33,551 bases of DNA from Bacillota bacterium (GCA_012839845.1 DUMM01000130.1:1-33551); one strand, 5' to 3'. Numbered from the stretch's first letter, positions 11,139 through 29,917 are shown. Translations and numbers: made by a program. Notes: generated by a model from the sequence alone, not told the origin.

Positions 11139-11289
11139 GGACCCAATGGGTTGGCCCTTATGGGCCCCTTGACTATTCCTTGGCTGCAGCTGAGCAATCC
11201 ACCTGAATGACAAGCGGGTGTCCTAAATCCAGAAGCAGTTGTTTGGGCATACTATGGACCAATGAATGCGTCAATGAGAAAAATGAGAA
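11139..11289 (+). other. Intergenic region after the YhaN-like gene
   Basis: The region has a small palindrome ACCCAATGGGT (11141-11151) and a GGCCC/GGGCC hairpin (11153-11166) with no T-run behind it. These may end or stabilise the upstream transcript. I see no gene here. Confidence 0.4.
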
Positions 11290-11318
11290 TTGAAAACCAG
11301 CCGGCACTTGAGTATAAT
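11290..11318 (+). promoter_or_regulatory. Sigma-A promoter of the cation transporter gene
   Basis: TTGAAA at 11290-11295, a 17-base spacer and a perfect TATAAT at 11313-11318. Transcription would begin near 11325, leaving a leader of about 150 bases before the start codon of the cation diffusion facilitator. Confidence 0.75.
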
Positions 11319-11394
11319 GAACGCAAGCCCCGCAATGGTGTCAGGCGACTTTCCGCCCCGAATGGGCAGAAGGCGCTGGGCTGGTTTTCAGCAG

Positions 11395-11451
11395 CAGGTA
11401 CAGATCTTCAACCTGTGGGACTCAATGGCTAATTGGGAACCACAGGTTTTT
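11395..11451 (+). promoter_or_regulatory. Leader attenuator: intrinsic terminator with a competing hairpin
   Basis: AACCTGTGG (11410-11418) pairs with CCACAGGTT (11440-11448). Inside this, after a GA/AA internal loop, CTCAAT pairs with ATTGGG. The stem runs into TTTTT at 11447-11451, so it is a good rho-independent terminator. It lies 22 bases before the ATG and 9 bases before the GAGGAGG site. CAGGT at 11395-11399 can instead pair with ACCTG at 11411-11415, which would break the terminator. The 70 bases between the promoter and this element contain small stems (GGCG/CGCC and GCTG/CAGC) and could be a metal-sensing aptamer. I cannot assign it to a known riboswitch class. Confidence 0.6.
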
Positions 11452-11473
11452 GTCCTTAATGAGGAGGGGCAGT

Positions 11474-12475: not shown

Positions 12476-12880
12476 TTAAGCTGCACCGTCAATCCTTTTC
12501 ATATCCCGGCTGGCGATGACATCAACGCCTGTATCGAGGAGATTGGCTAAAATCGCGTCGCCGGTCTTAACGGGAGCGGTTACCTCTACCTGGGCTAGGA
12601 CCCGCATGGCTTCAGCCAAGAGTTCCTTGGGAATAGCGTCTGAGGTTCTCACGGGCAGCAGGGGCAGGCTGGCGTTGCGAATTCTGACGGTGGTGGTCAA
12701 AACCCTCTTCGGGTTCAGCACTTCGTTTTCAGCATACATCTCTCCCCGCCGGCACTGAAACCCCGTGATGGACAGCTTTCCGTCGGCATCTTTCCTTACC
12801 TCCAGCAGGCAGCCGGTGGGGCAGACGATGCAGGTCATCCTCCGATAAAACCCCTGATCAGTTTGAGTGTCGATAGCCAT
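12476..12880 (-). CDS. DUF1667 protein, small Cys-rich partner of a glycerol-3-phosphate-type oxidoreductase
   Basis: The 134-residue protein has a Cys cluster near the N-terminus (CIVCPTGC and later FQCRRG), then RVLTTTVRI and PVRTSDAIPKELL, the usual DUF1667 pattern. Such genes usually follow a GlpA-like dehydrogenase and a small FAD oxidoreductase, as here. It may carry Fe-S for electron transfer, in place of GlpC. ATG 12880 has GGAGG 9 bases upstream. It is the last gene of the three-gene leftward operon and lies 26 bases after the gene before it. Confidence 0.85.
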   Translation of the reverse strand: MAIDTQTDQGFYRRMTCIVCPTGCLLEVRKDADGKLSITGFQCRRGEMYAENEVLNPKRVLTTTVRIRNASLPLLPVRTSDAIPKELLAEAMRVLAQVEVTAPVKTGDAILANLLDTGVDVIASRDMKRIDGAA

Positions 12881-12906
12881 CTGGGTTTTCCTCCCTCCGA
12901 GAGTAC

Positions 12907-14199
12907 TTACGCGCTTGGTTCTGCCGCAACAAGCAGCTCTTGTCCTGGGGCTTTTCCTGCCTGGAAAAGGCTCTCCCAGTGCTGGGCTTTGAGCCTAATT
13001 TTCAGCATTTCGCTCGGTCGCACCTGGCGCTTCTTTGCCAAGGTCACTCCACTGAGGGTCAAAGTGACGGCATCCATGGGATGCGACACCCGCATGTATA
13101 GGTCCACCTCTGCGCCCGCAGTGATCCGCTGCGGCAGTACGTATCTGAGGTTGCTTCCGGGTTTGAGGGCAAGCTGCTGCCCGCCGTCCCGGCCGCTGCC
13201 AGCTTCGTCAGCTGTCTCCCTCAGCGCATGGCGGGCTGCCTCTTCACCGGCGATTTCCGCTTCTTCACTGACATAGTCCACCAGGTCATGGACATGAAGG
13301 ACATTGCCGCAGGCAAAGATTCCGGAAACCAGAGTTTCCCGCTTCTCATCGACAACAGGTCCGCCGGTCCTCGGGTCCAAAGGCACGCCTGCCGTTTGGG
13401 AAAGCTCATTTTCAGGGATTAGGCCCACCGAAAGGAGGAGGGTATCGCAGGGGATATACCTCTCGGTGCCGGCAATTGGACACCAGTTGTCATCGACTTG
13501 GCTGACGGTTACCCCTTCGACCCGGTCTTTGCCGTGGATCATGGTTACAGTGGAACTGAGGTAAAGGGGGATATTGAAATCCTCCAGACACTGGGCGATA
13601 TTCCTAGCCAGCCCGGCCGGATACGGCATGATTTCCACCACTGCCTCCACTTTTGCCCCTTCCAGGGTAAAGCGTCTGGCCATAATCAATCCGATGTCTC
13701 CAGAGCCCAGGATGACAACCCGTTTGCCCGGCATGTAACCCTCCATATTGACAAACCGCTGGGCAGTGCCGGCAGTGTAGATGCCGGCAGGCCGGGTTCC
13801 GGGAATAGTCAAAGCTCCCCGGGTGCGCTCCCGGCACCCCATGGCCAGCACCACCGCCTTGGCCTTCAGCTTAACAAGTCCGTGGTCGGGATGAATAGCG
13901 GTTATTTCCTTGGTTGGCGTCAGGCTTAAGACCATGGTGTTGAGATACACATGGATATTGGGATCGGCTTCCACCTGGGGTATAAAGCGATAGGCGTACT
14001 CAGGCCCAGTCAGCTCTTCCTTGAACCTGTGAAGCCCGAAGCCGTTGTGGATGCACTGCTGCAAGATTCCGCCCAGCTCGTGATTCCGCTCCAGTATTGT
14101 CACATGTTCTGCTCCCGCCCTGCGGGCAGCAAGGGCTGCCGCCAGACCCGCCGGGCCGCCGCCGATAACAGCTACATCGGTATAACGGATGCTACGCAT
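12907..14199 (-). CDS. FAD/NAD-dependent oxidoreductase, GlpB-position partner
   Basis: A 430-residue pyridine-nucleotide-disulfide-type flavoprotein without a visible redox disulfide. FAD-binding GGGPAGLAAA is at the N-terminus, then GCRERTRGALTIPGTRPAG, a second Rossmann motif LGSGDIGLIMARR for NAD(P), and GIFACGNVLHVHDLVDYV near the C-terminal FAD contact. A beta domain of about 80 residues follows. In Thermotoga and many Clostridia this protein sits between a GlpA-like dehydrogenase and DUF1667, forming an electron-transferring dehydrogenase complex. ATG 14199 lies inside the end of the upstream gene (8-base overlap), which supports coupled translation. Confidence 0.87.
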   Translation of the reverse strand: MRSIRYTDVAVIGGGPAGLAAALAARRAGAEHVTILERNHELGGILQQCIHNGFGLHRFKEELTGPEYAYRFIPQVEADPNIHVYLNTMVLSLTPTKEITAIHPDHGLVKLKAKAVVLAMGCRERTRGALTIPGTRPAGIYTAGTAQRFVNMEGYMPGKRVVILGSGDIGLIMARRFTLEGAKVEAVVEIMPYPAGLARNIAQCLEDFNIPLYLSSTVTMIHGKDRVEGVTVSQVDDNWCPIAGTERYIPCDTLLLSVGLIPENELSQTAGVPLDPRTGGPVVDEKRETLVSGIFACGNVLHVHDLVDYVSEEAEIAGEEAARHALRETADEAGSGRDGGQQLALKPGSNLRYVLPQRITAGAEVDLYMRVSHPMDAVTLTLSGVTLAKKRQVRPSEMLKIRLKAQHWESLFQAGKAPGQELLVAAEPSA

Positions 14200-15670
14200 C
14201 GGCTTCTCCCCCTTTCAAGAAGGCTTTGGCTTCCGCAGCCAGAAGTTCAGTATTCCTGCCACGTTTCGTAATTTCCAGGGGAGAAACTCCCAACTCTCGG
14301 GCCAGGATCCTGACAACATACGGTGTACAAAAACCCCCTTGGCAGCGTCCCATCCCTGCCCGGGTGAGGAACTTGACTCCGTCCACCGTCCGGGCGCCTC
14401 TCCTTACGGCATCGACGATTTCGCCTTCGGTCACTGTCTCACAGCGGCAGACCACGTGGGCATAGAGGGGATCCCTCTTGATGACCTCCTCTTTCTCCTC
14501 ATCGGAAAGCTTCTTGAACCGGATGACTCTAGGCCGCCGGGGGTTGAAATCCGGCTTCGGCATGAGCTCAAGTCCTGCCTCGGCCAGCATCTCGGCGACA
14601 TGTTCCGCGATGGCAGGGGAAGCAGTCAAGCCCGGCGATTCTATGCCCAAAAGGTGAACAGCCCGGCCGCTGTGGGAGGTTTCAAAGATAAAGTCTCCAG
14701 TGGGCGAGCCTGCCCGGAGGCCGGCAAAAGCCGCGATGATATCCCGCCTCTGGATCTTGGGAACCAGTCTTTGTGTAAAGGCCAGGATTTCATCAAGGCC
14801 GGCTGCCGTGGTAGAAAGGTCATCCTTTCGCGGCATTTCCAGGGCGGTAGGCCCGATCATTATGTTGCCGCCGACGGTGGGGATTACCAGGATACCCTTT
14901 GACTTGGGCGTTGGAACGGGGAAGATGGTGTGTTTAACTAGATCCCCCACCCGCTGATCGAGAATGTACTCTTCGCCTTTGCGGGGAATCAGGGAGGGGA
15001 CATCTAAGCCGCACATCCTCGCCACATCGTCAGCAAAAAGGCCGGCGGCGTTGACTATATACTTCGCCTTCCACGTGCCGCCATCTTGAGAAGTAATGGT
15101 GAATCCGTCATCCCCGCAGGAGATGCCGGTTACTGCGACTTCAGTATAAACATCGGCGCCGTTGGCTGCGGCATTCTCTGCCTGAGCATGGGCAAGGGCA
15201 AAGGGGGCAACGATCCCTCCGGAAGCAGCCCGCAGCACCATGGTTATTTCCCCTGACAGGTTTGGCTCCAGGCGGCGGGCTGTATCGCCATCTAACAGCT
15301 CCATTCCGGGAACGCCGTTATCAAGTCCCTGTTGGTAAAAACGCCGCAGGATTTGCTCCTCCTCAGGGGTCCTGGCCACCATCATAAGGCCGTTGCGCTG
15401 GAAGGGGACGTCGAGCTCATCACAGAGCTGATCGTACATGCGGTTGCCGGCTACGCAGAGCCTTGCCATCCACGAACCAGGTTTATTGTGAAAACCTGCG
15501 TGGACTATGCCGCTGTTGGCCTTGGTGGCACCCCAGCCCACCTCAGCTTCCTTTTCCAGCAGTGCAGCCTTCAGCTGGTAGCGGGAGAGAGTTCGCAGCA
15601 CCGCAGTGCCCACAACTCCCCCGCCGATGACAACAACATCGTACTGGGTTCGTTCGCCCAATCGTGACAC
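14192..15670 (-). CDS. GlpA-like FAD-dependent dehydrogenase with C-terminal [2Fe-2S] domain
   Basis: The protein is 492 residues and related to anaerobic glycerol-3-phosphate dehydrogenase (GlpA) and to L-2-hydroxyglutarate-type DAO oxidases. The FAD motif GGGVVGTA is at the N-terminus, then GATKANSGIVHAGFH, NAAGLFAD and GLRAGSPTGDF. The C-terminal 100 residues are a BFD-like domain with four Cys (CRCETVTEGEI and GRCQGGFC) for a [2Fe-2S] cluster. The likely substrate is glycerol-3-phosphate, giving DHAP; a related hydroxy acid is possible. GTG 15670 is the probable start, with AGAGAGG very close upstream. It is the first gene of the operon and lies behind a promoter and an attenuator. DHAP also arises in the BMC aldolase step. 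Confidence 0.82.
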   Translation of the reverse strand: MSRLGERTQYDVVVIGGGVVGTAVLRTLSRYQLKAALLEKEAEVGWGATKANSGIVHAGFHNKPGSWMARLCVAGNRMYDQLCDELDVPFQRNGLMMVARTPEEEQILRRFYQQGLDNGVPGMELLDGDTARRLEPNLSGEITMVLRAASGGIVAPFALAHAQAENAAANGADVYTEVAVTGISCGDDGFTITSQDGGTWKAKYIVNAAGLFADDVARMCGLDVPSLIPRKGEEYILDQRVGDLVKHTIFPVPTPKSKGILVIPTVGGNIMIGPTALEMPRKDDLSTTAAGLDEILAFTQRLVPKIQRRDIIAAFAGLRAGSPTGDFIFETSHSGRAVHLLGIESPGLTASPAIAEHVAEMLAEAGLELMPKPDFNPRRPRVIRFKKLSDEEKEEVIKRDPLYAHVVCRCETVTEGEIVDAVRRGARTVDGVKFLTRAGMGRCQGGFCTPYVVRILARELGVSPLEITKRGRNTELLAAEAKAFLKGGEADA

Positions 15671-17085: not shown

Positions 17086-18108
17086 TTGCTCCTAGCTTCA
17101 CAGCTCGGGCGGCGAGAGGGGGTAGCATCGGTTTTGGGAAGCACCGAGAGACTGGATCATCTAGACTGCCAGATACTGATGCATTTGCAGAGGGATGGAC
17201 GCAGCTCGTATACTGCCCTGGCTGCACTTTGCGGGGTGTCCGAGGGAACAGTCCGCAAGCGGATGCAGCGGTTGGAGGAGCGCGGTGTTGTGAGGATCGT
17301 GGGAGTGACCAATCCAGCCAAGACTGGTATGGACACAGTGGCGGTGATTTGGCTGCGGGTGGAACGAGGACGGCTCTCGGAGGTGGTTTCCCAAATAAAT
17401 GCCCTGCCTCAGCCCCACTATGTGGCATACACCACAGGCGCTTCAGATATCGTAGCTATAGTCACTGTCGAGTCCCAGGAAGAACTGGTTAAGTTTCTAG
17501 CCAGGGATTTGAGTTCCATCGAAGGCCTTACTGAGACAGAGACGTCCATGCTGCTCCGAGTTTACAAGCAGGCCTACGATTGGTCGCCTTGGCCCCACCA
17601 GCCTCCCCAGTTTGCCGCCCAAGAAGATTCAGCCGTAGAAGCACTGGATGAGATTGACCTGCAGATTATCCGCTACCTGCAGCGAGACGGCCGGATGACG
17701 TTTGTCACCATCGCTGAGGAACTGGGCATCACCGAGAGTACGGTGCGGCGGCGGGTGACGTCTTTGCTGGAAAGGAACATCCTGAAGATCGCGGCGGTCA
17801 TCAATCCCGCTCAGGTAGGCCGCACCACTCTGGCCATGATCGGGATCAAGGTGGACAGGCAGCGCTTAGGAGATGTGGCACGTACTCTGGCCAGCATGAC
17901 GGATGTCCGCTATCTGGCCTTATCTACTGGAAAATACGATCTCATCATCGAAGTAGTCCAGGAGTCCAATGAGAAATTGCTGGATTTCTTGGTGGACACA
18001 CTAGAAGATATACCAGGCATCCTGCGCACAGACACCCATCTGCTTCTAAAGTTATCTAAGGAATCATATGATTGGGGAGTAGCCAAGGGGGTCTGTGCTG
18101 CCGGGTAA
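17086..18108 (+). CDS. Tandem Lrp/AsnC-family transcriptional regulator (two complete units fused)
   Basis: The 340-residue protein contains two full Lrp/AsnC modules. Unit 1 has a winged helix (LDCQILMHLQRDGRSSYTAL, then GVSEGTVRKRMQRLEERG) and a RAM ligand domain. Unit 2 repeats it (IDLQIIRYLQRDGRMTFVTI, then GITESTVRRRVTSLLERN) with a second RAM domain (YLALSTGKYDLIIEV). A normal Lrp protein is about 150 residues and dimerises, so this fusion would be an internal pseudo-dimer. The start is uncertain: TTG 17086 has AAGG 5 bases upstream, while TTG 17134 lies behind GAGAGGGGG and is closer to the domain. murB begins 13 bases downstream. The ligand, probably an amino acid, and the targets are unknown. 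Confidence 0.85.
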   Translation: MLLASQLGRREGVASVLGSTERLDHLDCQILMHLQRDGRSSYTALAALCGVSEGTVRKRMQRLEERGVVRIVGVTNPAKTGMDTVAVIWLRVERGRLSEVVSQINALPQPHYVAYTTGASDIVAIVTVESQEELVKFLARDLSSIEGLTETETSMLLRVYKQAYDWSPWPHQPPQFAAQEDSAVEALDEIDLQIIRYLQRDGRMTFVTIAEELGITESTVRRRVTSLLERNILKIAAVINPAQVGRTTLAMIGIKVDRQRLGDVARTLASMTDVRYLALSTGKYDLIIEVVQESNEKLLDFLVDTLEDIPGILRTDTHLLLKLSKESYDWGVAKGVCAAG

Positions 18109-19350: not shown

Positions 19351-19569
19351 CCTGATTGGCCCCTTTGGAGACTGTTTTGCTTCACTTGCCTCTCCTATCA
19401 TTCTATGGAGTTGGGGTACTTTGCATACTTGTAAAAAGCAATGTTAACAGACGATTTTCTCTGCTGAGGCAGGAATGTGGTGGTAAGTAGACGAAAGTAT
19501 CAAGCAAACAAACTAGATCCCAAGAAACCACAGAATAAACCTGGGTGGATGCCGAAAGGGGCATGTAAA

Positions 19570-20349
19570 GTGGTGTCAGAGTTTCAGCTCAAGAAGGACA
19601 TTATTGAGGTGGGTCGTCGAATATACAATCGGGGTTATGTGGCCGCGAATGATGGGAATATAAGCATCCGTATCGATGAGAATCGGGTTCTCTGCACACC
19701 CACTGGGGTGAGCAAAGGCTTTATGACCCCGGACATGATCTGCACCGTGGATTTGGACGGCAAAGTGATCAGCGGTACATGGAAACCTTCATCGGAACTG
19801 AAGATGCACTTGGCAGTGTATAAAGCCAGGGAGGACGTCAAGGCAGTAGTGCATGCCCATCCTCCTTATGCCACTGCCTTTGCTGTTGCCGGCTATGCGC
19901 TGAAAGAAGCTATCATGCCGGAGGTAATCATCAGCCTCGGCTGGGTGCCCCTGACCAAGTACGGCACTCCTTCCACAGAGGAGATCCCAGAGGCGATTAT
20001 GCCTTATCTGCCGTGCCACGATGCCTTTCTCTTGGAGAATCACGGCGCCCTGACAGTGGGAACCGATGTCTACAACGCGCTTTTCAAGATGGAGACTTTG
20101 GAGATGGGTGCCCAGATCAGCCTCCTTGCTCGCCTGCTGGGCGGTGCTCGGGAGCTCAGTCCAGAGAATGTGGAAAGGCTGATGGAGGTCAGGAGAAGAC
20201 TGGGGGTGTCCGGCGGACATCCGGCCATGTGCAATCTGCCCGAGGGCAGTCAGGCGTCCCAGCCGGGAGCAGGCGTTGGAGATGAAGCAAGACTCAAGGC
20301 CACTATTTCCGAAGTAGTTAAGGAGGTGCTGGCGGAACAGCGCAGATAG
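19570..20349 (+). CDS. Class II aldolase (L-fuculose-phosphate aldolase family), BMC cargo
   Basis: A zinc-dependent aldolase/adducin-fold enzyme that should cleave a ketose-1-phosphate to DHAP and an aldehyde (lactaldehyde from fuculose- or rhamnulose-1-phosphate). Zinc ligands are His95, His97 (VVHAHPPY) and His158 (ENHGAL); the catalytic Glu76 is in PSSELKMHL. NDGNIS and TPTGVSKGFM complete the active site. After a Gly/Ser/Pro linker, the last 22 residues (EARLKATISEVVKEVLAEQ) form an amphipathic helix, a typical C-terminal encapsulation peptide. The frame opens at GTG 19477, but the first 31 codons are AT-rich and basic, unlike the rest. GTG 19570 has AAAGGGG 8 bases upstream and gives the usual family N-terminus. 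It is the first gene of the BMC operon. Confidence 0.88.
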   Translation: MVSEFQLKKDIIEVGRRIYNRGYVAANDGNISIRIDENRVLCTPTGVSKGFMTPDMICTVDLDGKVISGTWKPSSELKMHLAVYKAREDVKAVVHAHPPYATAFAVAGYALKEAIMPEVIISLGWVPLTKYGTPSTEEIPEAIMPYLPCHDAFLLENHGALTVGTDVYNALFKMETLEMGAQISLLARLLGGARELSPENVERLMEVRRRLGVSGGHPAMCNLPEGSQASQPGAGVGDEARLKATISEVVKEVLAEQRR

Positions 20350-20396: not shown

Positions 20397-20669
20397 GTGC
20401 GGGGAGATGCACTGGGATTGGTTGAAATTGTTGGTCTAGCCGCTGCTTGTGAAGCGGCTGATGTAGCGGTGAAGACCGCTAATGTAGAGCTGTTGGGATT
20501 TGAGCCGTCCGGGCGGGGGATGGTGACTGTCAAAATTGCTGGTGATGTGGCAGCAGTGACGGCGGCAGTGGATGCCGCCTGTGCAGCCGCAAACCGCCTG
20601 TCTAAAGTATATGCCAGCAGGGTTATTGCCCGGGCCGACTCAGCTGTAGTTGAAGAGTTTACACCATAA
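20397..20669 (+). CDS. BMC-H shell protein with an Arg-containing pore loop
   Basis: A 90-residue single-domain BMC protein that forms hexagonal shell tiles. The family core is clear: ALGLVE, then ACEAADVAVKTANVELLGFE and GDVAAVTAAVDAACAAA. The pore loop reads PSGRG, with Arg40 at the place of Ser40 in PduA (KIGSG). Six such Arg would make the central pore strongly positive. GTG 20397 has GGGAGGAGA 7 bases upstream. The next gene is a canonical BMC-H, so this one may be specialised for passage of an anionic substrate such as a sugar phosphate. Confidence 0.93.
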   Translation: MRGDALGLVEIVGLAAACEAADVAVKTANVELLGFEPSGRGMVTVKIAGDVAAVTAAVDAACAAANRLSKVYASRVIARADSAVVEEFTP

Positions 20670-20687: not shown

Positions 20688-20966
20688 ATGGGTGAAGCAT
20701 TGGGTTTGATCGAAACTAGAGGTTTGGTAGGTGCCATTGAAGCAGCCGATGCCATGGTCAAGGCTGCAAATGTTCAGCTGGTAGGGTATGAGAAAATCGG
20801 TTCTGGTCTGGTCACTGTTATGGTGAGGGGCGATGTGGGAGCCATCCGGGCTGCCGTAGACGCTGGAGCAGCCGCAGCCAGCAAGTTGGCGGAAGTTGTT
20901 GCAGCCCACGTCATTCCCCGTCCTCACAGCGATCTGGAGCGCGTTATCCTTCCCCACGCCGACTAA
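20688..20966 (+). CDS. Canonical BMC-H shell protein (PduA/EutM type)
   Basis: A 92-residue BMC-H with [19 protein letters not shown], then the standard pore loop EKIGSG and [13 protein letters not shown]. The tail [13 protein letters not shown] matches the PduA/PduJ C-terminus. It is probably the main facet-forming hexamer and gives a small polar pore for the aldehyde and small acids. ATG 20688 has GAAGGGAG upstream. It lies 18 bases after the first BMC-H. Confidence 0.95.
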
Positions 20967-21065: not shown

Positions 21066-22463
21066 ATGCAGGTTGATGAACAGCGTATTGCGTTAATTGT
21101 AGAAGAGGTCCTGCGGCAGCTGAAGGGAGATTCTGCCTCGCCTGGCGGCGAGCAGGGCCAGGATGGGATCTTCACCTCTGTTGACGCAGCGGTCAAAGCA
21201 GCGGCAGCGGCGCAAAAAGAGCTGATGGCTATGCCGCTCAGTGCCCGGAAGAGAATCATCGATGCCATCCGGGAAGCGGGAGTAGCCAATGCCGAGCGCT
21301 TTGCCCGGATGACTGTGGATGAGACCGGACTTGGGCGCTACGAACATAAGGTGCAGAAGAACATCAACGCCGCCCGCCTTTCTCCCGGAGTTGAGGATCT
21401 AGAGACCGTGACTCAGGCTGGAGAATACGGGGTCACCTTGACTAAGAGGATACCTTACGGCGTGATTGTCTCCATTCTGCCCACCACCCATCCGACGCCC
21501 TTTGTCATTAATCATGCCATCATTATGCTGGCTGGCGGCAACACGGTCTTCTTCTGCCCGCATCCCCGGGCTCAGAACTGCACCCGGGAGGCAATCAGAG
21601 TTCTCAACCGGGCTATAGTCGCCGCAGGCGGACCTCGGAATACCCTGGTGGCGGTTAATGAGGCGACGCTGGATGCAGTCAACGCGGCTATTCAGCATCC
21701 CCTCACGGCTATGGTAACTGCTGCCGGCGGGCCGGGTGTGGTGAAGGCAGCCTTGAGCAGCGGCAAGAAAGCTGTGGCTGCCGGTGCAGCCAATCCGCCG
21801 GTATTAGTGGATGAAACGGCGGATATTCCCAAGGCCGCCCGGGACATCCTAAGGGGCTCTTGGTTTGACAACAACGTCTTGTGCATCGCCGAGAAGACGG
21901 TGTTTGCCGTGCGGTGCATCGCGGATCAGCTGATCGCTGAGATGCAGAAGAACGGAGCTTACCTCTTGAAAGGCCCGGAGGTAGACGCAGTTACCCGCCT
22001 GGTGGTCAAAGACGGCCATGTGGTGGGGGATTGGGTTGGCAAAGATGGTGCCGTGATCCTCAAGGCCGCGGGCATCAATCCGCCGCCGGGCACCGAAGGC
22101 GCGATTATGGTTGTTGGGTTTGACCATCCGTTGGTCAAGATCGAACAGATGCTGCCGGTGCTGCCCATTGTCATTGTGGAGAACTTCGAAGAAGGGCTGC
22201 GCTTGGCGGTAGAGGCAGAGCAGGGCTTCGGCCACACCGGCATTATCCACTCTCGGGATGTGGAGCGGATTGCCCGCTTCAGCCGAGAGCTGGCGACTAC
22301 CATTATTGTGGCCAATGCGCCGTCCTATGCCTCTTTGGGGATTGAAGGCAACAGCAACTTCGCCCACACCATCGCCAGTCCCACTGGGGAGGGCATCTGC
22401 ACCCCCAGAACCTTTACCCGCCAGCACAATGTAACCATCGGCGGCGGTTTAGGGCTGGCATAG
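21066..22463 (+). CDS. CoA-acylating aldehyde dehydrogenase (PduP/EutE family), BMC cargo
   Basis: The protein is 465 residues. It oxidises the pathway aldehyde with NAD+ and CoA to acyl-CoA and NADH. Residues 2-20 (QVDEQRIALIVEEVLRQLK) are an amphipathic N-terminal encapsulation helix, joined by a Gly/Ser/Pro linker to the enzyme. Family motifs are PTTHPTPFVINHAIIMLAGGN, FCPHPRA, and the catalytic Cys273 in WFDNNVLCIAEK. GFGHTGIIHS and the C-terminal TFTRQHNVTIGGG match PduP/EutE. Because the partner aldolase would give lactaldehyde or acetaldehyde, the product would be lactyl-CoA or acetyl-CoA. About 100 bases without a visible signal separate it from the BMC-H gene. Confidence 0.93.
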   Translation: MQVDEQRIALIVEEVLRQLKGDSASPGGEQGQDGIFTSVDAAVKAAAAAQKELMAMPLSARKRIIDAIREAGVANAERFARMTVDETGLGRYEHKVQKNINAARLSPGVEDLETVTQAGEYGVTLTKRIPYGVIVSILPTTHPTPFVINHAIIMLAGGNTVFFCPHPRAQNCTREAIRVLNRAIVAAGGPRNTLVAVNEATLDAVNAAIQHPLTAMVTAAGGPGVVKAALSSGKKAVAAGAANPPVLVDETADIPKAARDILRGSWFDNNVLCIAEKTVFAVRCIADQLIAEMQKNGAYLLKGPEVDAVTRLVVKDGHVVGDWVGKDGAVILKAAGINPPPGTEGAIMVVGFDHPLVKIEQMLPVLPIVIVENFEEGLRLAVEAEQGFGHTGIIHSRDVERIARFSRELATTIIVANAPSYASLGIEGNSNFAHTIASPTGEGICTPRTFTRQHNVTIGGGLGLA

Positions 22464-22597: not shown

Positions 22598-23935
22598 ATG
22601 GATCGGGAGGCCATCCTGGCAGCTGTTGAGGCCGCCGGAGTGGTGGGCGCAGGCGGCGCCGGTTTTCCCACCCACGTAAAACTCAAGACAGCCTGTGAAG
22701 TGCTGGTAGTCAACGGAGCCGAGTGTGAACCACTGCTCCAGGTGGACCATGAGCTTCTTTACCACCATCTGCCGGTGGTGCTGGAGGGCATTAACGCTGC
22801 CCGGAGGGCCACAGGGGCCAAGCGGGTTTACCTGGGTGTGAAAGGCAAACACCAAGCTTTGCTGCAAAAGCTCAAGAAGCGCTTAGCCTCTCGGTCTTGG
22901 CTGGAAATCGTCCCTCTGCCTGATGTTTACCCCATTGGGGATGAGCACGTGTTGGTCTACCAAGTGCTGGGGCGAAGAGTTCCGCCCAGGGGGATACCGC
23001 TGCAGGTTGGGGCAGTGGTTCTCAATGTGGAGACGCTGTACAACATCGCCAAGGCCCTGGCCGGGGAATGCGTCACCCACACCTATGTAACCGTCAACGG
23101 CGCCGTATCTCAGCCCGGTACTTGGTCAGTTCCCGTGGGAACGCCCATAGAAGAGGTGGTCAAAGCGGCTCAGCCGTTGCTGGAGCCTGGGACGTGGACG
23201 GTGGTCAGCGGCGGCCCCATGATGGGGGAAGTGGAGAATGATCTTTCCCAGCCGGTGACCAAGACCACCAAAGGCCTGATTGTCCTGCCGAGGGACCACG
23301 CAGTGGTGGCAAGACTCGCATCCAAGCAAACGCTGCTGCGGTGGGCTTACAGCGTCTGCTGCCAGTGCACCATGTGCACAGATCTATGTCCCAGGTATCT
23401 TTTGGGCCATCCCCTGCATCCCCACCGGCTTATGCGGGCTCTAGCTTCTGGCGGGCCGATGGAGGCGGAGACAGCGGCAGAGGCACTGCTTTGCAGTGAG
23501 TGCGGAGTCTGCGATCACTACGCCTGTTTTATGGGACTGTCGCCCCGCCGGGTGAACCAGATGCTGAAGGCTAAGCTGGCCTCTGGTCACAGCGCTGCCA
23601 GATTCTCGCTGGAAGAGGTAAGGCCGAGCTTTGCGGAAAGCCAAGTGCCTGCAGGGCGGCTTGTTGCCCATTTGAAACTGGCCAGGTGGAACCAGCCGGC
23701 GCCCTTACAGGGCATCCTGCCGGCCGGTGCGCGGGTAGCCGTTCCCCTTAAGCAGCATGTGGGAGCTCCTGCCGCCTGCCGGGTCAAGGTGGGAGATGAG
23801 GTCCAGGAAGGTACGCTCTTGGGCTGTATGAGCGAAGGCCAGCTGGGGGCTGCAGTCCACAGCAGCATCGCGGGCAGGGTGACGGCTGTTGCCGACGGAA
23901 TGGTGTTCATCGAGCGGGGTGGCAGCAATGGGTGA
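22598..23935 (+). CDS. PduS-like flavin/Fe-S electron-transfer protein (RnfC family), copy 1
   Basis: A 445-residue RnfC/PduS protein that oxidises NADH and passes electrons through FMN and Fe-S. The Gly-rich NADH-type motif GAGGAGFPTHVK is at residues 17-28, then NGAECEPLL, an SLBB-type region, and two [4Fe-4S] sets: CQCTMCTDLCP (about 253) and CSECGVCDHYAC (about 299). The C-terminal beta-barrel (KQHVGAP...GAAVHSSIAGRVTAV) is typical of RnfC proteins. ATG 22598 follows GGTGAGGGG. The BMC-T gene starts 8 bases before its stop, an arrangement that suggests the two act together, as PduS and PduT do. Confidence 0.93.
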   Translation: MDREAILAAVEAAGVVGAGGAGFPTHVKLKTACEVLVVNGAECEPLLQVDHELLYHHLPVVLEGINAARRATGAKRVYLGVKGKHQALLQKLKKRLASRSWLEIVPLPDVYPIGDEHVLVYQVLGRRVPPRGIPLQVGAVVLNVETLYNIAKALAGECVTHTYVTVNGAVSQPGTWSVPVGTPIEEVVKAAQPLLEPGTWTVVSGGPMMGEVENDLSQPVTKTTKGLIVLPRDHAVVARLASKQTLLRWAYSVCCQCTMCTDLCPRYLLGHPLHPHRLMRALASGGPMEAETAAEALLCSECGVCDHYACFMGLSPRRVNQMLKAKLASGHSAARFSLEEVRPSFAESQVPAGRLVAHLKLARWNQPAPLQGILPAGARVAVPLKQHVGAPAACRVKVGDEVQEGTLLGCMSEGQLGAAVHSSIAGRVTAVADGMVFIERGGSNG

Positions 23936-24482
23936 TAGACACGCCCTGGCAATGATGGAGTTTAAGAGCATCGGCCGCGGCTTGGAATGTGTCGATGGGG
24001 TGCTGAAAGGGTTTCCGGTAGAACTTATTCTCCTTAAGATCATCTGCCCCGGGAAGCTCCTTGCTGCCATCACCGGCGAGACAGCGGCAGTAAGGGGTGC
24101 CCTGCAGCTGGCAAGAAGCACCCATTCGGGGATGACCTATATAGACGACTTCTTCCTGGGAAATCCTGCCCCCGGCATTCTTGCCGCTTTGCGGGGTACT
24201 GTTCCAGTGCAGCGGCAGGGTGCGCTGGGGATTATTGAAACCTTTACCGCCAGCTCCGGCCTGGTGGCGGCCGACACGGCGGCCAAGGCTGCCAGCATCA
24301 CCCTGGTCACCATCCACTTGGCTCGGGGATTGGCGGGCAAAGCCCATATTTGCCTTGTGGGCAGCATAGGTGCTGTGGAGGTGGCCCTGGAAGCAGTGGA
24401 GAAAGGGCTGGAGCCGGGGCTTTTGGCTAGGACCCGCATCATTGCTGCTCCAGATGAAGCCGTTTGGTCGGCTATTTCGTGA
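23928..24482 (+). CDS. BMC-T (tandem-domain) shell protein, PduT-like, copy 1
   Basis: A 184-residue protein with two BMC domains: residues 5-85 (LAMMEFKSIGRGLECVDG) and 105-184 (GALGIIETFTASSGLVAAD). It forms a trimer that looks like a hexamer. Cys40 in KIICPGK corresponds to Cys38 in PduT, which holds one [4Fe-4S] cluster at the trimer axis. It is therefore a likely electron conduit. ATG 23928 lies inside the PduS-like gene (8-base overlap), so translation is coupled. Confidence 0.92.
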   Translation: MGDRHALAMMEFKSIGRGLECVDGVLKGFPVELILLKIICPGKLLAAITGETAAVRGALQLARSTHSGMTYIDDFFLGNPAPGILAALRGTVPVQRQGALGIIETFTASSGLVAADTAAKAASITLVTIHLARGLAGKAHICLVGSIGAVEVALEAVEKGLEPGLLARTRIIAAPDEAVWSAIS

Positions 24483-24496
24483 TCTGGGAGGACGCC

Positions 24497-25744
24497 ATGC
24501 TTATACTGGTACTCAACTGCGGAGGGTCATCAGTCAAATACCAGTTGGTGGAGATGCCGGATGAACGGGTATTGGCCCGGGGGAGCGTGGAGCGGATCGG
24601 CAAGGTGGACGGTGAGCTGAAACTGGAGACCTTTAGAGGGGCCCAGAAAGATGCCGGTTCAGGGACCGGCGGCTGGAAGCTGAGCCGTGTGCTGCCGGTT
24701 GCTGATCACGGAGCTGCCATCCTTCTGGCCTTAGAAGCCTTGGCTGATCCTGAACACGGAGTCATCGAGTCTTTTTCTGAAATTGACGCTGTTGGTCACC
24801 GGGTAGTGCACGGGGGAGAAAAATGCACCGGTTCCGTCTTGATTACCGACGAGGTGGTAGCGGTCCTCCGGGAATTTTTTGACCTCGCCCCTCTCCACAA
24901 TCCACCTAATGTGGAAGGAATCGAAGTTTGTCAGCGGCTTATGCCGGATACGCCCATGGTGGCTGTATTTGACAGCAGCCTCCATCAGACAGTGCCGCCG
25001 TACGCCTATACATACGCCATCCCTTACCGCTACTATGAGCAGTACCGGGTGCGGCGCTACGGCTTCCACGGGATCACCTTCCGGTACATGACTCAGCGGG
25101 CGGCAGAGTTTCTAGGAAGACCCTTAGAGGAGCTGAAGATCGTCAACTTGATGCTGGGAAGCGGTACCACCGCCTGCGCCTTCAAGGAGGGCAGGTCCAT
25201 CGATGTGAGTACCGGGCTTACGCCGACGGAGGGACTGGTCCAATCAACCCGCTGCGGGGATATCGATCCCTTGGTGGTTACCTACTTGATGCGGAAGGAA
25301 GGGATCGACCCGGATAGAATGGACCAAATTCTGAACAAGGAAAGCGGTTGGCTGGGTATTTCCGGTGTAAGCAATGACCTGCGGGAAGTCTTTGCGGCGG
25401 CCGAGGCCGGCAATGCTAGGGCGCAGCTGGCAATTGATACCTTTGTCTACCGGACTAAGAAATATGTAGGGGCATATGCGGCAGCCATGGGCGGCATCGA
25501 CGTTTTGGTTTTCTCCGGTGGGGTGGGGGAAAGGTCGCCCGTCATCAGAGAGAGAATCTGCGATGGCTTGGAGTTTCTGGGCATTTATCTAGACAAGACT
25601 GCCAACCAGTCACCTGAGCCCGAAAAGCGCATTTCCCGGGCTGATTCACCGGTGGAGGTGCTGGTCATACCTACCAATGAGGAGATCGTCATCGCCCGGG
25701 ACACTTACAGCATAGTCCGAGGACTGCAAGCAGGTGAGCGTTAA
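24497..25744 (+). CDS. Acetate-kinase-family protein with altered active-site residues
   Basis: A 415-residue ASKHA kinase that would convert acyl-phosphate and ADP to acid and ATP, the energy-conserving step of the locus. Conserved elements (Methanosarcina AckA numbering by eye) are Asn7, Arg91 (GHRVVHGGE), His123, Asp148 (VFDSSLHQT), His180 (GFHG), Arg241 and Glu384 (PTNEE). Changed positions are Ser10 to Gly (LNCGGSSVK), His184 to Phe (GFHGITF), the HLGNG loop to MLGSG (His208 to Met, Asn211 to Ser), and GIGEN to GVGER. A substrate other than acetate, such as lactate, is possible. ATG 24497 has GGGAGGA upstream. No encapsulation helix is seen, so it may act outside the shell. Confidence 0.85.
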   Translation: MLILVLNCGGSSVKYQLVEMPDERVLARGSVERIGKVDGELKLETFRGAQKDAGSGTGGWKLSRVLPVADHGAAILLALEALADPEHGVIESFSEIDAVGHRVVHGGEKCTGSVLITDEVVAVLREFFDLAPLHNPPNVEGIEVCQRLMPDTPMVAVFDSSLHQTVPPYAYTYAIPYRYYEQYRVRRYGFHGITFRYMTQRAAEFLGRPLEELKIVNLMLGSGTTACAFKEGRSIDVSTGLTPTEGLVQSTRCGDIDPLVVTYLMRKEGIDPDRMDQILNKESGWLGISGVSNDLREVFAAAEAGNARAQLAIDTFVYRTKKYVGAYAAAMGGIDVLVFSGGVGERSPVIRERICDGLEFLGIYLDKTANQSPEPEKRISRADSPVEVLVIPTNEEIVIARDTYSIVRGLQAGER

Positions 25745-25745
25745 G

Positions 25746-26291
25746 ATGGCTAAGGCAGTTGGGCTGTTGGAGATAGCCGGCATAGCTCCCGGTTACTTGG
25801 CCGCCAATGAGGTGAGCAAGCACACTGCCGTTGACCTTTGGCTGGCCAATCCCATTTGTCCTGGGTACTTTATCGTGGTGGTTGCCGGCGACGCCGCCAG
25901 CGTGAAGGCAGCCATGGATATAGCTGCTGCCTGGGGAGAGGGTGAAGTTATCTCCCAGGGTATGCTGGCCGATGTAGATGAAAAGGTACTGAAGGTGCTG
26001 CAAAATCCCCCTGGTATGAAGCCGGGCAAGGCCATGGGGATTGTCGAAACCTTTGGAGCTGCGGCGGCTGTGTTAGCTGCCGATGGAGCAGTGAAGACTG
26101 CCGCAGTGGAACTGGTGGAGCTCAGGATCGGCGGCGGCATGGGGGGCAAGGCTCTGGTGTGTTTTGCCGGTGATGTAGATGCAGTGGAGTCGGCTGCTGC
26201 CCATGTGCGGCAGTTGGTTGAGCCTGCACAGCTTGCTCATGTTGCGGTGCTGCCTGCACCCCATCCTGAGATTGTTGCCCATTGGCAGTAG
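25746..26291 (+). CDS. BMC-T shell protein, PduT-like, copy 2
   Basis: The protein is 181 residues with two BMC domains (AVGLLEIAGIAPGYLAANE and AMGIVETFGAAAAVLAADG). Cys38 in NPICPGYF stands at the place of the PduT cluster ligand, so it too may carry a pore [4Fe-4S]. ATG 25746 has AGGTGAG 8 bases upstream; it begins 1 base after the kinase stop. It differs clearly in sequence from copy 1, so the copies are old paralogues and could form different trimers. Confidence 0.92.
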   Translation: MAKAVGLLEIAGIAPGYLAANEVSKHTAVDLWLANPICPGYFIVVVAGDAASVKAAMDIAAAWGEGEVISQGMLADVDEKVLKVLQNPPGMKPGKAMGIVETFGAAAAVLAADGAVKTAAVELVELRIGGGMGGKALVCFAGDVDAVESAAAHVRQLVEPAQLAHVAVLPAPHPEIVAHWQ

Positions 26292-26313
26292 GTGAGTAGA
26301 AAGAGGGTTAACT

Positions 26314-26631
26314 ATGCAGATGGCAAGGGTTGCCGGAACAGTTGTGGCTACTCAGAAAGACCCCAAACTGGTGGGGCTGAAGCTTCAGCTGGTTCAGCCG
26401 CTGGACATTATCACCGGTAAGGAAAGCGGCAGGCCGCTGGTGGCGGTAGATACGGTGGGCGCCGGCGTCGGCGATGTGGTGATGATTGTCGGCGGCAGCT
26501 CCGCCCGGCAGACAGACAGGACGGCCTCTTCACCGGTGGACTTGGCTATAGTCAGCATCATCGATTTGGTTGAAGTTGACGGCAAGACGGTGTATGACCG
26601 CCGGGCCCGTTGCGGGGAGGGGAACCAGTGA
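26314..26631 (+). CDS. BMC-P (EutN/CcmL) shell vertex protein, copy 1
   Basis: A 105-residue pentamer-forming protein that closes the twelve shell vertices. It has the family start MARVAGTVVATQKDPKLVGLK, the LVQPLD turn, and VAVDTVGAGVGDVVMIVGGSSAR. The C-terminal extension is charged. ATG 26314 has AGAGGG upstream. Its stop overlaps the next BMC-P by 4 bases. Confidence 0.95.
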   Translation: MQMARVAGTVVATQKDPKLVGLKLQLVQPLDIITGKESGRPLVAVDTVGAGVGDVVMIVGGSSARQTDRTASSPVDLAIVSIIDLVEVDGKTVYDRRARCGEGNQ

Positions 26632-26918
26632 AATTCGGCAGAGTGATTGGCAGCGTGGTTTCCACCCAAAAAGACGCCAATTTGGTGGGGGTTAAGCTTT
26701 TGGTCATCCAGCCCCTGGACCGGGATCTAGTCCCGGAAGGGTCTGCGTACATCGCTGCCGACGCAACGGGTCAAGCCGGTTACGGTCAAATCGTGACTGT
26801 TGTCTTCAGCGCCGACGCCACCCAGGCCTTTCCTCTGCCGCAGATACCGGTGGATGCCAGTATAGTGGGGATAGTTGATGACTCTACCATTGACCGGTCG
26901 GCTGAAGGCAGAGGGTAG
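26628..26918 (+). CDS. BMC-P (EutN/CcmL) shell vertex protein, copy 2
   Basis: A 96-residue BMC-P starting KFGRVIGSVVSTQKDANLVG and continuing with LVIQPLD and a glycine-rich turn (ADATGQAGYGQIV). This turn replaces the usual GAGVGD, so the pentamer may differ at its axis. GTG 26628 follows GGGGAGGGG and overlaps the stop of copy 1 by 4 bases. Several BMC-P copies per locus are normal. Confidence 0.93.
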   Translation: MKFGRVIGSVVSTQKDANLVGVKLLVIQPLDRDLVPEGSAYIAADATGQAGYGQIVTVVFSADATQAFPLPQIPVDASIVGIVDDSTIDRSAEGRG

Positions 26919-26968
26919 CTGACCGCCTGGAGATGACTGAGCAGCAGCTTTTGTTGGGAGTGGGGCCC

Positions 26969-27211
26969 GTGTACTTGGCTAAGGTTATTGGTCCTGTAGT
27001 GTGCACAGTTAAGCATCCTGCCTATGAAGGCAGAACTATGCTGATCATCAGCCCCATTGACGACCCCGACGATTACGAGATCGCCGTGGATTACGTCGGG
27101 GCGGGCGTTGGGGATACGGTAATTGCCGGAGGAGCGCCGGGGGTTGCCAAGAGTGTGTTTAACCTTGACAAAGCCCCCATCAAGACATTGATCATGGGCA
27201 TCGTCGATTGA
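26969..27211 (+). CDS. BMC-P (EutN/CcmL) shell vertex protein, copy 3
   Basis: An 80-residue BMC-P with YLAKVIGPVVCTVKHPAYEG, LIISPIDD and VDYVGAGVGDTVIAGG. GTG 26969 is chosen because GGGAG at 26956-26960 lies 8 bases upstream and the product then has the usual family N-terminus; ATG 26933 would add 12 atypical residues. A Cys in the first strand (VVCT) is unusual. It is the shortest of the three copies. Confidence 0.92.
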   Translation: MYLAKVIGPVVCTVKHPAYEGRTMLIISPIDDPDDYEIAVDYVGAGVGDTVIAGGAPGVAKSVFNLDKAPIKTLIMGIVD

Positions 27212-27254
27212 GGGTATTCAGCCGGAGCAAATGACAGTAGATGGGGGGAGAGAA

Positions 27255-27914
27255 ATGGACGAGAGGAAATTGGTAGAAGAAATCACCCGCCGGGTTTTGG
27301 CTAGACTGCAGGAGCAGGGTGCTGCCCAAGATCCGGACTATCTGCCGGTGGGAGTTTCCGTGCGCCACGTACATGTTTCCCAAGCGGATTTGGAGGTCCT
27401 CTACGGACCGGGACATCAGCTTACCCCCCTGCGGGATCTGTACCAGGAGGGCGAATTCGCCGCTAAAGAAGTAGTGGCTTTAGTCGGCCCCAAGATGCGG
27501 GCCTTGGAGAATGTCCGAATTCTCGGCCCCGTACGCAAGCGCACCCAGGTGGAGGTGTCCAGGACTGATGCCATTTATCTAGGCATCAATCCACCGGTGC
27601 GGGCATCAGGGGATCTAGCTGGTTCTAGTCCCATTACGCTGGTGGGGCCCAAGGGAACGCTGGTCCTGTCTGAAGGGTGTATAGTTGCCAACCGCCATAT
27701 CCACATGAGCCCCAAGGATGCCGAAAGGTTCGGCCTGCAGGATAACGATCTGGTTCAAGTTGAGGTCTTGGGAGAGAAGGGCCTGATCTTCAACAACGTT
27801 CAGGTCAGGGTGAAGGACAATTTCCGCCTGGAGATGCACTTAGACACCGATGACGCCAATGCTTCCGGCATATCTACCGGTGCTGCAGCCAGGATCTTGG
27901 GTAAGCAGAAATAG
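27255..27914 (+). CDS. pduL: Phosphate acyltransferase PduL, BMC cargo
   Basis: A 219-residue PduL that exchanges CoA for phosphate (acyl-CoA to acyl-phosphate) and so recycles CoA in the compartment. Residues 1-20 (DERKLVEEITRRVLARLQEQ) are an amphipathic encapsulation helix, followed by a short linker. Two zinc-binding motifs are seen, VRHVHVSQAD and NRHIHMSPKDA. EGEFAAKEVVALVGPK and GPVRKRTQVEVSRTDA are standard PduL. ATG 27255 follows GGGGGAGAG; an upstream ATG 27231 is in frame but has no such site. It links the dehydrogenase and the kinase. Confidence 0.95.
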   Translation: MDERKLVEEITRRVLARLQEQGAAQDPDYLPVGVSVRHVHVSQADLEVLYGPGHQLTPLRDLYQEGEFAAKEVVALVGPKMRALENVRILGPVRKRTQVEVSRTDAIYLGINPPVRASGDLAGSSPITLVGPKGTLVLSEGCIVANRHIHMSPKDAERFGLQDNDLVQVEVLGEKGLIFNNVQVRVKDNFRLEMHLDTDDANASGISTGAAARILGKQK

Positions 27915-27941
27915 CAGGAGCTGGAAAGGGGCCTTCGGGCG

Positions 27942-29291
27942 GTGAATAGGGATAGGAAAACCCTCATTGCCAAAACGAAAGCAGCGGGTGTTGTGGGAGC
28001 TGGCGGAGCTGGCTTTCCTACCCACGTCAAGCTGGATGCCCAGGTGAAGACCGTCATAGTCAACGGCGCTGAGTGCGAGCCTTTGCTTTCCGTTGATGTC
28101 CAGCTCATGGAGAGGCGGGCAGATGAGCTGGTGGAGACCTTGGACTTTATAGTTGAGGCTCTGGGGGCTGAGGCGGGGGTAATCGGCATTAAGGGCAAAC
28201 ACCGTGCCGCGGTTGCCAAGCTCCAAGAAGCGGTGAGCGGTTGGGATAGGCTGCGGGTTGAACTGCTGGGCGACTACTACCCTGCCGGTGATGAGCATAT
28301 TCTGGTGTACGATGTCACCGGTCAAGCGGTACCTGAGGGGGGGATACCCCTGGCCGTCGGGGCGGTAGTCATCAATGTGGAGACTCTGCTTAACGTAGGT
28401 GCAGCCCTCAGGGATCAGCCGGTGATCACCACCTGGATTACTGTGGCAGGGGCTGTCAGGGAACCGGTGACCTTGGCGGTGCCGGTGGGTACTCCCGTGG
28501 CAGCGGCGGTAGACCTGGCTGGAGGACCGCTGACAGCAGATTTCCGGGTTATTGAGGGCGGTCCCATGACCGGAGTGCTTCTGTCTCAGGAAGAAGTAAA
28601 AACCGGCAGGGCGGTGTGCAAGAAGACCACAACGGGCTTGATCGTCTTGCCTGCCGACCACTGGCTGGTTCGGCAGTACAACGTGAAGCTAGGCAGGATT
28701 TTGCAGCGGGCCCAATCCGCCTGCTGTCAGTGCCGGCTGTGCACCGATCTTTGCCCCCGCTATTTACTGGGGCACGAGATCCATCCCCATCTGGTTCTTA
28801 ACGCTGTCAACCACGGGCACGCGGCCAACACTGCGGCCATCACCGAAGCTTTTCTCTGCTGTGACTGCGGAGTCTGCGAGCTGTACGCCTGTCCTGTGGA
28901 GCTATCTCCCAGACGGGTGTACCGGGCCCTCAAAGAAGAGCTGGGCAGGCGGGGGGCGGGAAATCCCCATCGGCGCCGGGTTGAACCGAGGCAGGCTCTA
29001 GGCGGGCGCCATATCCCAGTAGACCACCTTGTTACCCGTCTAGGTCTGGATGAGTACGTTGTCCGCGCACCTTGGTCGGAGGTGGAATTCTCTCCTCGCC
29101 GGGTAAGCATCCCCCTTAAGCAGCACGTCGGGGTGCCGGCGAAGCCCCTGGTGCAGGCCGGGCAGCGGGTAGAGAAGGGTCAGGTCATCGCTGTGCCGCC
29201 GCCGGATAAGCTGGGGGCAGCAGTCCACGCCAGCATTCCCGGGCGGGTGACAGAAGTGACCAAGACGGAAATTGTCATTGTGGGTGAATGA
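27942..29291 (+). CDS. PduS-like flavin/Fe-S electron-transfer protein (RnfC family), copy 2
   Basis: A 449-residue paralogue of the first PduS-like protein. It has VGAGGAGFPTHVKLD, NGAECEPLL, the cluster sets CQCRLCTDLCP and CCDCGVCELYAC, and the C-terminal barrel with KQHVGVPAKP and GAAVHASIPGRVTEV. The copies are clearly diverged, so both are likely to be retained for use. The GTG 27942 start is 27 bases after pduL. The next gene is again a BMC-T, repeating the PduS then BMC-T order. Confidence 0.93.
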   Translation: MNRDRKTLIAKTKAAGVVGAGGAGFPTHVKLDAQVKTVIVNGAECEPLLSVDVQLMERRADELVETLDFIVEALGAEAGVIGIKGKHRAAVAKLQEAVSGWDRLRVELLGDYYPAGDEHILVYDVTGQAVPEGGIPLAVGAVVINVETLLNVGAALRDQPVITTWITVAGAVREPVTLAVPVGTPVAAAVDLAGGPLTADFRVIEGGPMTGVLLSQEEVKTGRAVCKKTTTGLIVLPADHWLVRQYNVKLGRILQRAQSACCQCRLCTDLCPRYLLGHEIHPHLVLNAVNHGHAANTAAITEAFLCCDCGVCELYACPVELSPRRVYRALKEELGRRGAGNPHRRRVEPRQALGGRHIPVDHLVTRLGLDEYVVRAPWSEVEFSPRRVSIPLKQHVGVPAKPLVQAGQRVEKGQVIAVPPPDKLGAAVHASIPGRVTEVTKTEIVIVGE

Positions 29292-29317
29292 GGGGCTGGA
29301 AAGAGGTGAAATTCCGG

Positions 29318-29917
29318 ATGACGCTGGCACGGGTACCTGATGCTGTAGGTTTCTTGGAAATCAAAGGAGCTGCCGACGGAGCCGCTGCCGTAGACACCGC
29401 AGTGAAAGCTGCTGTAGTGGAGATTCTCCAAACGAGAGTGGTTTGTTCCGGGAAGTTCACCGTGCTGCTGGCCGGCCAGACAGCGGCGGTGGAGGCAGCA
29501 GCTGCCGCCGCCAGGAGAGAAGTAGGAGCCAGCATTTATGATTACTGCGTGATCGGAAGAGTTCATCCTTCCTTGTATTTGGCCTTATTCGATCAGTTTC
29601 TCGACTGCGGAGAGGAAAGGAAAAAGGCTTCGCCCCTGCCGGGTGGTGCTGTGGGCATAGTCGAGGCATTAAGTATTGCCGCCGGCCTGGAAGCCGCTGA
29701 TGCAGCCCTCAAGGTGGCGGAAGTTGACCTCTTTGAGCTGCGGCTGGGCTACGCCATGGGGGGAAGGAGCTATTTTGCCTTCACCGGTACCACCGGTGCC
29801 GTTAAAGCAGCCCTTGATAGGGCGGTACGATCAGCCGCTGACCGGGGTGCGCTGGGAAGCAGCTGCCTGATTCCCCAGTTTAATGCCGGGAAGTTCCCCT
29901 TCATGGTGATGGCCTGA
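29318..29917 (+). CDS. BMC-T shell protein, PduT-like, copy 3
   Basis: The protein is 199 residues with two BMC domains (AVGFLEIKGAADGAAAVDT and AVGIVEALSIAAGLEAAD) and a longer linker (FLDCGEERKKASP). Cys43 in TRVVCSGKFTV matches the PduT cluster position, though the Pro after Cys is replaced by Ser. ATG 29318 follows AAAGAGGTG; an ATG 29288 overlapping the PduS-like stop is possible. It is the last gene of the locus. Confidence 0.9.
   Translation: MTLARVPDAVGFLEIKGAADGAAAVDTAVKAAVVEILQTRVVCSGKFTVLLAGQTAAVEAAAAAARREVGASIYDYCVIGRVHPSLYLALFDQFLDCGEERKKASPLPGGAVGIVEALSIAAGLEAADAALKVAEVDLFELRLGYAMGGRSYFAFTGTTGAVKAALDRAVRSAADRGALGSSCLIPQFNAGKFPFMVMA

Follow-up and report, generated by a model that had tools for sequence, protein, structure and literature searches.

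The core of a classical bacterial microcompartment (BMC) metabolosome includes an alcohol dehydrogenase (ADH) encoded in the locus. PVM-like loci mostly lack this enzyme (AlcDH), and PVM-like and SPU-like aldolase loci without it were listed by Axen et al. 2014 (PMC4207490). The idea that PduS and PduT export electrons goes back to Parsons et al. 2010 (PMC2982820); Ferlez et al. 2019 (PMC6325248) took it further, and in 2021 it was invoked for the ADH-less BMC of Bilophila (PMC8667426), in which redox recycling was still termed elusive in 2025 (PMC12125255). In Listeria it has been invoked for a PduT-like shell protein (PMC8547011). PduS of C. freundii oxidises NADH via FMN to two [4Fe-4S] clusters, co-purifies with PduT and is a corrin reductase (PMC2982820), and binding of PduS to PduT is known from PDU (PMC2982820, PMC6325248). 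The role of PduS and PduT is confounded by B12 chemistry in PDU and by glycyl radical activation in the GRMs.

Several described systems resemble the locus reported here, which has no linked ADH. PVM and PVM-like BMCs (Planctomycetes/Verrucomicrobia, Firmicutes; PMC4207490, PMC8217296) share with it a class II aldolase as signature enzyme, an aldehyde dehydrogenase (AldDH) and PduL. Acetate kinase is common to PVM and this locus, fucose and rhamnose are PVM substrates, and most PVM-like loci lack AlcDH, as is the case here. PVM, however, has a lactate/malate-type dehydrogenase as a substitute for AlcDH, and no lactate/malate-dehydrogenase-like Pfam occurs among our locus genes. A DeoR regulator is present in most PVM-like members, but the locus genes tested include no DeoR-family regulator. 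Two PduS and three BMC-T shell proteins with a pore cysteine further distinguish our locus from PVM and PVM-like loci. SPU and SPU-like loci (Atribacteria, Latescibacteria; PMC4207490) share the aldolase, AldDH, PduL, in some cases PduS, and the lack of AlcDH; in SPU-like loci the aldolase is of class II and accompanied by acetate kinase, as here. They differ in their RpiB-type isomerase, in DeoC (in SPU) and in the single PduS described for them. Neither DeoC (PF01791) nor RpiB (PF02502) was found at our locus.

The GRM5 'fucosome' of the Clostridium phytofermentans type (PMC4207490, PMC6325248) likewise has a class II aldolase, AldDH, PduL and a PduS beside a PduT-type BMC-T, but it also contains a glycyl radical diol dehydratase and a Zn-type AlcDH, both missing here, and no second PduS has been described for it. 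The isethionate BMC of Bilophila wadsworthia (PMC8667426, PMC12125255) shares PduS, a PduT-type shell protein and the lack of a linked ADH; it differs in its glycyl radical isethionate lyase, its acetaldehyde substrate and its single PduS and PduT. The Eut BMC of Listeria monocytogenes, which is coupled to extracellular electron transfer (PMC8547011), shares a BMC-T of the pore [4Fe-4S] type and the proposed export of surplus electrons, but has the ADH EutG and a B12-dependent signature enzyme.

We found no description of a locus that combines two PduS with three pore-Cys BMC-T and is conserved throughout a family; the type may already bear a name in the tables of Sutter 2021. The first-pass annotation had considered the layout undescribed. 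This holds for the combination of two PduS with three pore-Cys BMC-T, but lack of ADH is common and electron export had been proposed in 2010, 2019 and 2021. What is new is that PduS is doubled and the pore-Cys BMC-T tripled, and so is the setting, a fucose-isomerase-like gene together with rhamnulokinase-like, AraD and lactate-racemase genes placed there through synteny.

Gene content and conservation of the BMC locus

The window analysed here (33,551 nucleotides) comprises the whole of contig C123; the genome, that of an uncultured Bacillota bacterium, amounts to 2.06 Mb in 135 contigs. All eight PF00936 domains detected by a genome-wide family search fall on this contig, which therefore carries the sole BMC locus found in the genome; our other genome-wide statements rest on family searches of the same kind. 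The locus spans 19.5-29.9 kb, and each gene between 19516 and 29917 was assigned. The features are as follows.

1741-3240, - strand: L-fucose-isomerase-family protein (PF07881/PF07882/PF02952), candidate upstream sugar isomerase
19516-20349, + strand: class II aldolase (PF00596), signature enzyme
20397-20669, + strand: BMC-H shell protein 1 (BMC domain)
20688-20966, + strand: BMC-H shell protein 2 (BMC domain)
21066-22463, + strand: CoA-acylating aldehyde dehydrogenase (PduP/EutE type)
22598-23935, + strand: PduS-like flavin/Fe-S NADH oxidoreductase 1 (PduS1), four PduS Pfam domains
23928-24482, + strand: BMC-T1, two PF00936 domains, pore Cys40 (KIICPGK)
24497-25744, + strand: acetate/propionate-family kinase (AckA family)
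25746-26291, + strand: BMC-T2, two PF00936 domains, pore Cys38 (PICPGYF)
26314-26631, + strand: BMC-P (EutN/CcmL) 1
26628-26918, + strand: BMC-P 2
26933-27211, + strand: BMC-P 3
27231-27914, + strand: PduL phosphotransacylase (PF06130)
27942-29291, + strand: PduS-like flavin/Fe-S NADH oxidoreductase 2 (PduS2), four PduS Pfam domains
29318-29917, + strand: BMC-T3, two PF00936 domains, pore Cys43 (VVCSGKF); the frame may begin at 29288

The shell genes thus comprise 2 BMC-H, 3 BMC-P and three BMC-T, the make-up of BMC-H and BMC-P being a usual, though not an absolute, feature of such loci (PMC4207490). Helices resembling encapsulation peptides were seen in three enzymes: an amphipathic tail at the C-terminus of the aldolase (ISEVVKEVLAEQRR) and N-terminal helices of AldDH (QRIALIVEEVLRQL) and PduL (VEEITRRVLARLQE). 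By family assignment the locus genes include no B12-dependent diol dehydratase, ethanolamine lyase or adenosyltransferase, and no glycyl radical enzyme (GRE) or activase. The nearest regulator gene (17086-18108, + strand) encodes a 340-aa protein of two tandem Lrp/AsnC units, which keeps its place upstream of the BMC locus across the family and is a possible regulator.

The locus is present in 11 of 11 genomes of the family, a group of uncultured anaerobes, whole or as the part left uncut by contig ends; in two genomes (G005 and G006) it is cut in this way. PduS occurs in all 11 and in two copies in nine, one of the two copies in G001 being partial at a contig end. Wherever contigs are long enough the gene order is the same, running from CwlD and MurB to BMC-T3 and on to a downstream ABC transporter. 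Because the arrangement is syntenic in all 11 genomes and the pore cysteines are invariant, it is not due to chance. An artefact of the metagenome-assembled genome (MAG) was also rejected, as ten other genomes show the same synteny. Where computable, dN/dS of both PduS and all three BMC-T genes was 0.08-0.16.

Paired PduS and pore-cysteine shell proteins

Both PduS-like proteins carry PF01512, an SLBB domain (PF10531), Fer4_17 (PF13534) and RnfC_N (PF13375) together with two tetracysteine motifs, and both match RnfC of solved Rnf complexes; the annotation of two RnfC/PduS-type proteins was therefore correct. The SLBB domain of PduS1 scores 27.8 bits, slightly above the cut-off of 27. NADH/FMN-type motifs and all Fe-S ligands are retained in both. 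The eight Fe-S cysteines of each protein are invariant among the family orthologues, whereas most other cysteines vary. No encapsulation-peptide-like helix was seen on either protein, and PduS of PDU likewise has none. PduS1 and PduS2 are 46% identical and form two separate clades with an SH-aLRT support of 100 in a tree of 98 sequences, a quick tree whose deep branches are weak. The fully supported clades indicate that the two copies are older than the diversification of the family, and a recent duplication was rejected on the same grounds. Judged from these comparisons, PduS1 and PduS2 are old paralogues kept in parallel under purifying selection.

Each PduS gene is trailed by a BMC-T gene. 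The ATG of BMC-T1 at 23928 does lie inside the PduS1 gene, which ends at 23935, but this is a mere 8-nt overlap, and in the second pair the overlap is 4 nt (29288/29291). Overlaps of 8 and 4 nt are ordinary operon spacing and were dismissed as a special feature. With the most likely starts, at 23928, 25746 and 29318, the numbering of Cys40, Cys38 and Cys43 is correct, and in the alignment these residues (ICPG, ICPG and VCSG) fall on the pore position of PduT. All three BMC-T show the tandem BMC domains with pore Cys that characterise the PduT type, and their nearest relatives in the PDB are PduT-type trimers. In the NCBIfam model TIGR02526 (PduT equivalog) they score 81-121 bits, all below the cut-off of 250.3, so that on their sequences they are to be classed as PduT-like and not as PduT proper. 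The pore Cys is invariant in 9 of 9, 10 of 10 and 10 of 10 orthologues of BMC-T1, BMC-T2 and BMC-T3, respectively, while invariant positions overall number 66 of 184, 45 of 182 and 54 of 199. The three proteins are thus predicted to bind a pore [4Fe-4S] cluster.

For comparison we used 80 PduS loci from GTDB species genomes. The only locus with two PduS among them, L016 (JAAZMR010000109.1), belongs to a separately deposited MAG of the same family; the other 79 have no second PduS. Searches of 151, 73 and 398 genomes, in overlapping sets, found no contig outside the family on which two PduS lie within 10 kb of each other. G200 was considered as a second case and rejected: its two PduS come from two near-identical EUT loci, each with a single PduS. 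These two loci (L175/L176 on contig C29) lie about 20 kb apart and reflect either a real duplication or an assembly artefact. The association with a pore Cys is more general, since 70 of 70 BMC-T proteins encoded beside a PduS in loci outside the family have one, which indicates that PduS and the pore Cys travel together. L019 (Desulfoluna) and L023 (Desulfobacterium) each have two pore-Cys BMC-T, one PduS and an Fe-ADH.

Reoxidation of NADH

An ADH inside the shell had been taken as the rule for BMCs. This does not agree with the comparison set, in which an ADH was detected near only 18 of the 80 PduS loci; 62 showed none nearby, many of the loci being cut by contig ends. Since a linked ADH is often missing, its lack is not diagnostic, and the layout cannot be called unique on this account. 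Aldolase loci that have one PduS and in which no ADH was detected are L062 (Nitrospinaceae), L060, an actinobacterial MAG locus cut by a contig end, and L017. The last of these (Firmicutes UBA5435, 5078-11977) encodes BMC-H, PduL, AldDH, PduS and BMC-T. Read by eye, it also has a DeoR-like regulator and a class II fructose-bisphosphate-type aldolase-like protein, and it is possibly another aldolase-type BMC.

For our locus the absence of an ADH was confirmed: neither ADH class is encoded in the window, and the locus contigs of ten relatives lack both as well. Elsewhere in the genome there are seven matches to the Fe-ADH family and five to the Zn-ADH family. An encapsulated enzyme among these had been proposed as a finding that would speak against electron export. 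ADH genes are indeed present, but none of the five Fe-ADH-family proteins that were read over their whole length has an encapsulation-like terminal extension, a feature used because a hydrophobic-moment scan for encapsulation peptides did not discriminate among the ADHs. The missing extensions refute neither view, as PduQ enters its compartment without an encapsulation peptide (PMC6325248). L011, an Fe-ADH-family protein whose best NCBIfam match (PRK15138, 300 of 645 bits) suggests a YqhD-like enzyme, has orthologues in seven of eight family genomes tested; with the same threshold, none turned up in four outgroup genomes. L009 (best NCBIfam score 219 of 523 bits) and L010 fall far under the lactaldehyde-reductase cut-offs, and two further Fe-ADH-family proteins are glycerol-dehydrogenase-like (GldA-type).

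The reading we prefer, with a probability of roughly 0.56, is an aldolase-type metabolosome in which NADH is reoxidised by the PduS pair and electrons leave through the BMC-T pores. In the cytosol a deoxy-sugar, most likely fucose or rhamnose, would be isomerised and then phosphorylated, and the encapsulated class II aldolase would cleave the ketose-1-phosphate to DHAP and L-lactaldehyde. AldDH would convert the aldehyde to acyl-CoA, with one NADH per aldehyde oxidised, and PduL and the kinase would turn acyl-CoA into the acid (lactate) and ATP. At the inner face of the shell the two PduS would pass electrons from NADH through FMN and two [4Fe-4S] clusters to the BMC-T pore clusters, from which they would reach a cytosolic acceptor and finally a hydrogenase or another sink. 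Because electrons would leave via the shell and no ADH would be involved, all of the aldehyde could become acid with gain of ATP. The most economical reading of the gene pairs is that PduS1/BMC-T1 and PduS2/BMC-T3 form two shell-crossing relays and that BMC-T2 supplies an extra pore cluster. It gives no reason for a need of two PduS and three BMC-T, which counts against it. The identity of the substrate, the docking of PduS to BMC-T, the direction of electron flow and the acceptor are what we infer from the gene content, domains, Fe-S ligand conservation and synteny observed. Electron export as first annotated thus draws support from the conserved PduS ligands, the pore cysteines and the lack of ADH, B12 and GRE genes at the locus; against it stand the unlinked ADHs and the sub-cut-off PduT scores of the BMC-T, and the idea itself was already published.

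The genome contains one RnfD gene and five matches to Fe-Fe hydrogenases, some of them cut short by a contig end. Both families occur in all family genomes tested and are possible electron sinks. The cluster of PduT in PDU has a potential of +99 mV (PMC2982820), far too high for H2 formation, so that potentials here would have to be lower or another acceptor used; an engineered BMC-T cluster lies at -370 mV (PMC6325248).

NAD+ might instead be regenerated by an ADH encoded elsewhere (the YqhD-like L011, the Fe-ADHs L009 or L010, or GldA). Such an enzyme could enter the lumen with no encapsulation peptide, as PduQ does, or act on leaked aldehyde, and the PduS and BMC-T pores would then be secondary. 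The number of unlinked ADHs and the distribution of L011 agree with this, and in Bilophila, too, an unlinked adh has been suspected (PMC12125255). We nevertheless regard it as unlikely: none of the family genomes has an ADH linked to the locus, the low NCBIfam scores and plain termini of the proteins give it no help, and the doubled, strictly conserved PduS/BMC-T would be left unexplained. Slightly less probable still is an exchange of NADH or NAD+ through shell pores, in which hydrogenases or Rnf would reoxidise NADH in the cytosol and PduS/BMC-T would carry electrons inward or tune the redox state instead of forming the main outlet. Rnf and some hydrogenases are NADH oxidisers, the host encodes RnfD along with several Fe-Fe hydrogenases, and many BMC loci lack an ADH. 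Yet the locus has no radical or corrinoid enzyme that would require inward electrons, and private cofactor pools have been reported for BMCs by Huseby and Roth 2013, as cited in PMC8667426.

It is very improbable that PduS1 and PduS2 are cobalamin reductases or GRE reductants for enzymes encoded elsewhere, roles proposed for PDU and GRM. Homology to PduS and the corrin reductase activity of the C. freundii protein would fit, but enzymes of either kind, their adenosyltransferase and activase included, are missing from the locus, no BMC domain of the genome was found outside it, and a query with E. coli PflB found no PFL-type GRE in the genome. Since neither confounder is present at the locus and the module is doubled and conserved in the family, it offers, with its small soluble proteins, a clean natural case in which to ask whether a protein shell conducts electrons. 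A bolder version, which we hold only tentatively and at somewhat less than even odds, is a vertically inherited, family-wide metabolosome in which shell conduction, through two dedicated PduS/BMC-T relays and a third trimer with a pore cluster, is the sole means of NAD+ recycling and would be the main, obligate redox outlet instead of an accessory one, lactaldehyde going wholly to lactate and ATP and the electrons to H2 or a respiratory sink.

Candidate sugar substrate and neighbouring genes

The L-fucose-isomerase-family protein is 25% identical to E. coli FucI, and its family orthologues are 80-92% identical. The BMC aldolase shares 31% identity with E. coli FucA and 54-56% with aldolases of Clostridia BMC loci (L084/L091/L094), and passed no curated equivalog cut-off. 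No rhamnose isomerase was found in the genome with the E. coli query. In two relatives (G001:C84 and G004:C212) the isomerase and the counterpart of the window gene at 539-1312 run into LarA (lactate racemase), AraD and a rhamnulokinase-like kinase; on G004:C212 these three genes stand in a row at 1373-5411 (L171). In the genome studied here they lie at the end of another contig, C64 (L174, G000:C64, 8429-12484), and from this synteny C64 probably joins C123 just upstream of the first genes of the window. LarA passes its NCBI equivalog cut-off (495 against 460 bits), AraD barely does so (389.4 against 389.1), and the kinase falls slightly short of the rhamnulokinase cut-off (507 against 528). 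Taken together, the isomerase, the synteny of LarA, AraD and kinase, and the aldolase identities point to a pathway from fucose or rhamnose to L-lactaldehyde and DHAP and on to lactate, in which LarA would handle L-lactate. AraD, the kinase and the isomerase could serve pentoses too.

Genes at 12476-15670 (- strand), which run divergently from the BMC locus and keep their synteny in several genomes of the family, encode a DUF1667 protein, a pyridine nucleotide-disulfide oxidoreductase and a glycerol-3-phosphate-oxidase-like FAD protein with a BFD [2Fe-2S] domain. These enzymes could process DHAP or glycerol-3-phosphate arising from the aldolase reaction. The window also encodes, at 5501-6559 (- strand), a Caspase-like peptidase (PF00656) with a CarboxypepD-regulatory domain.
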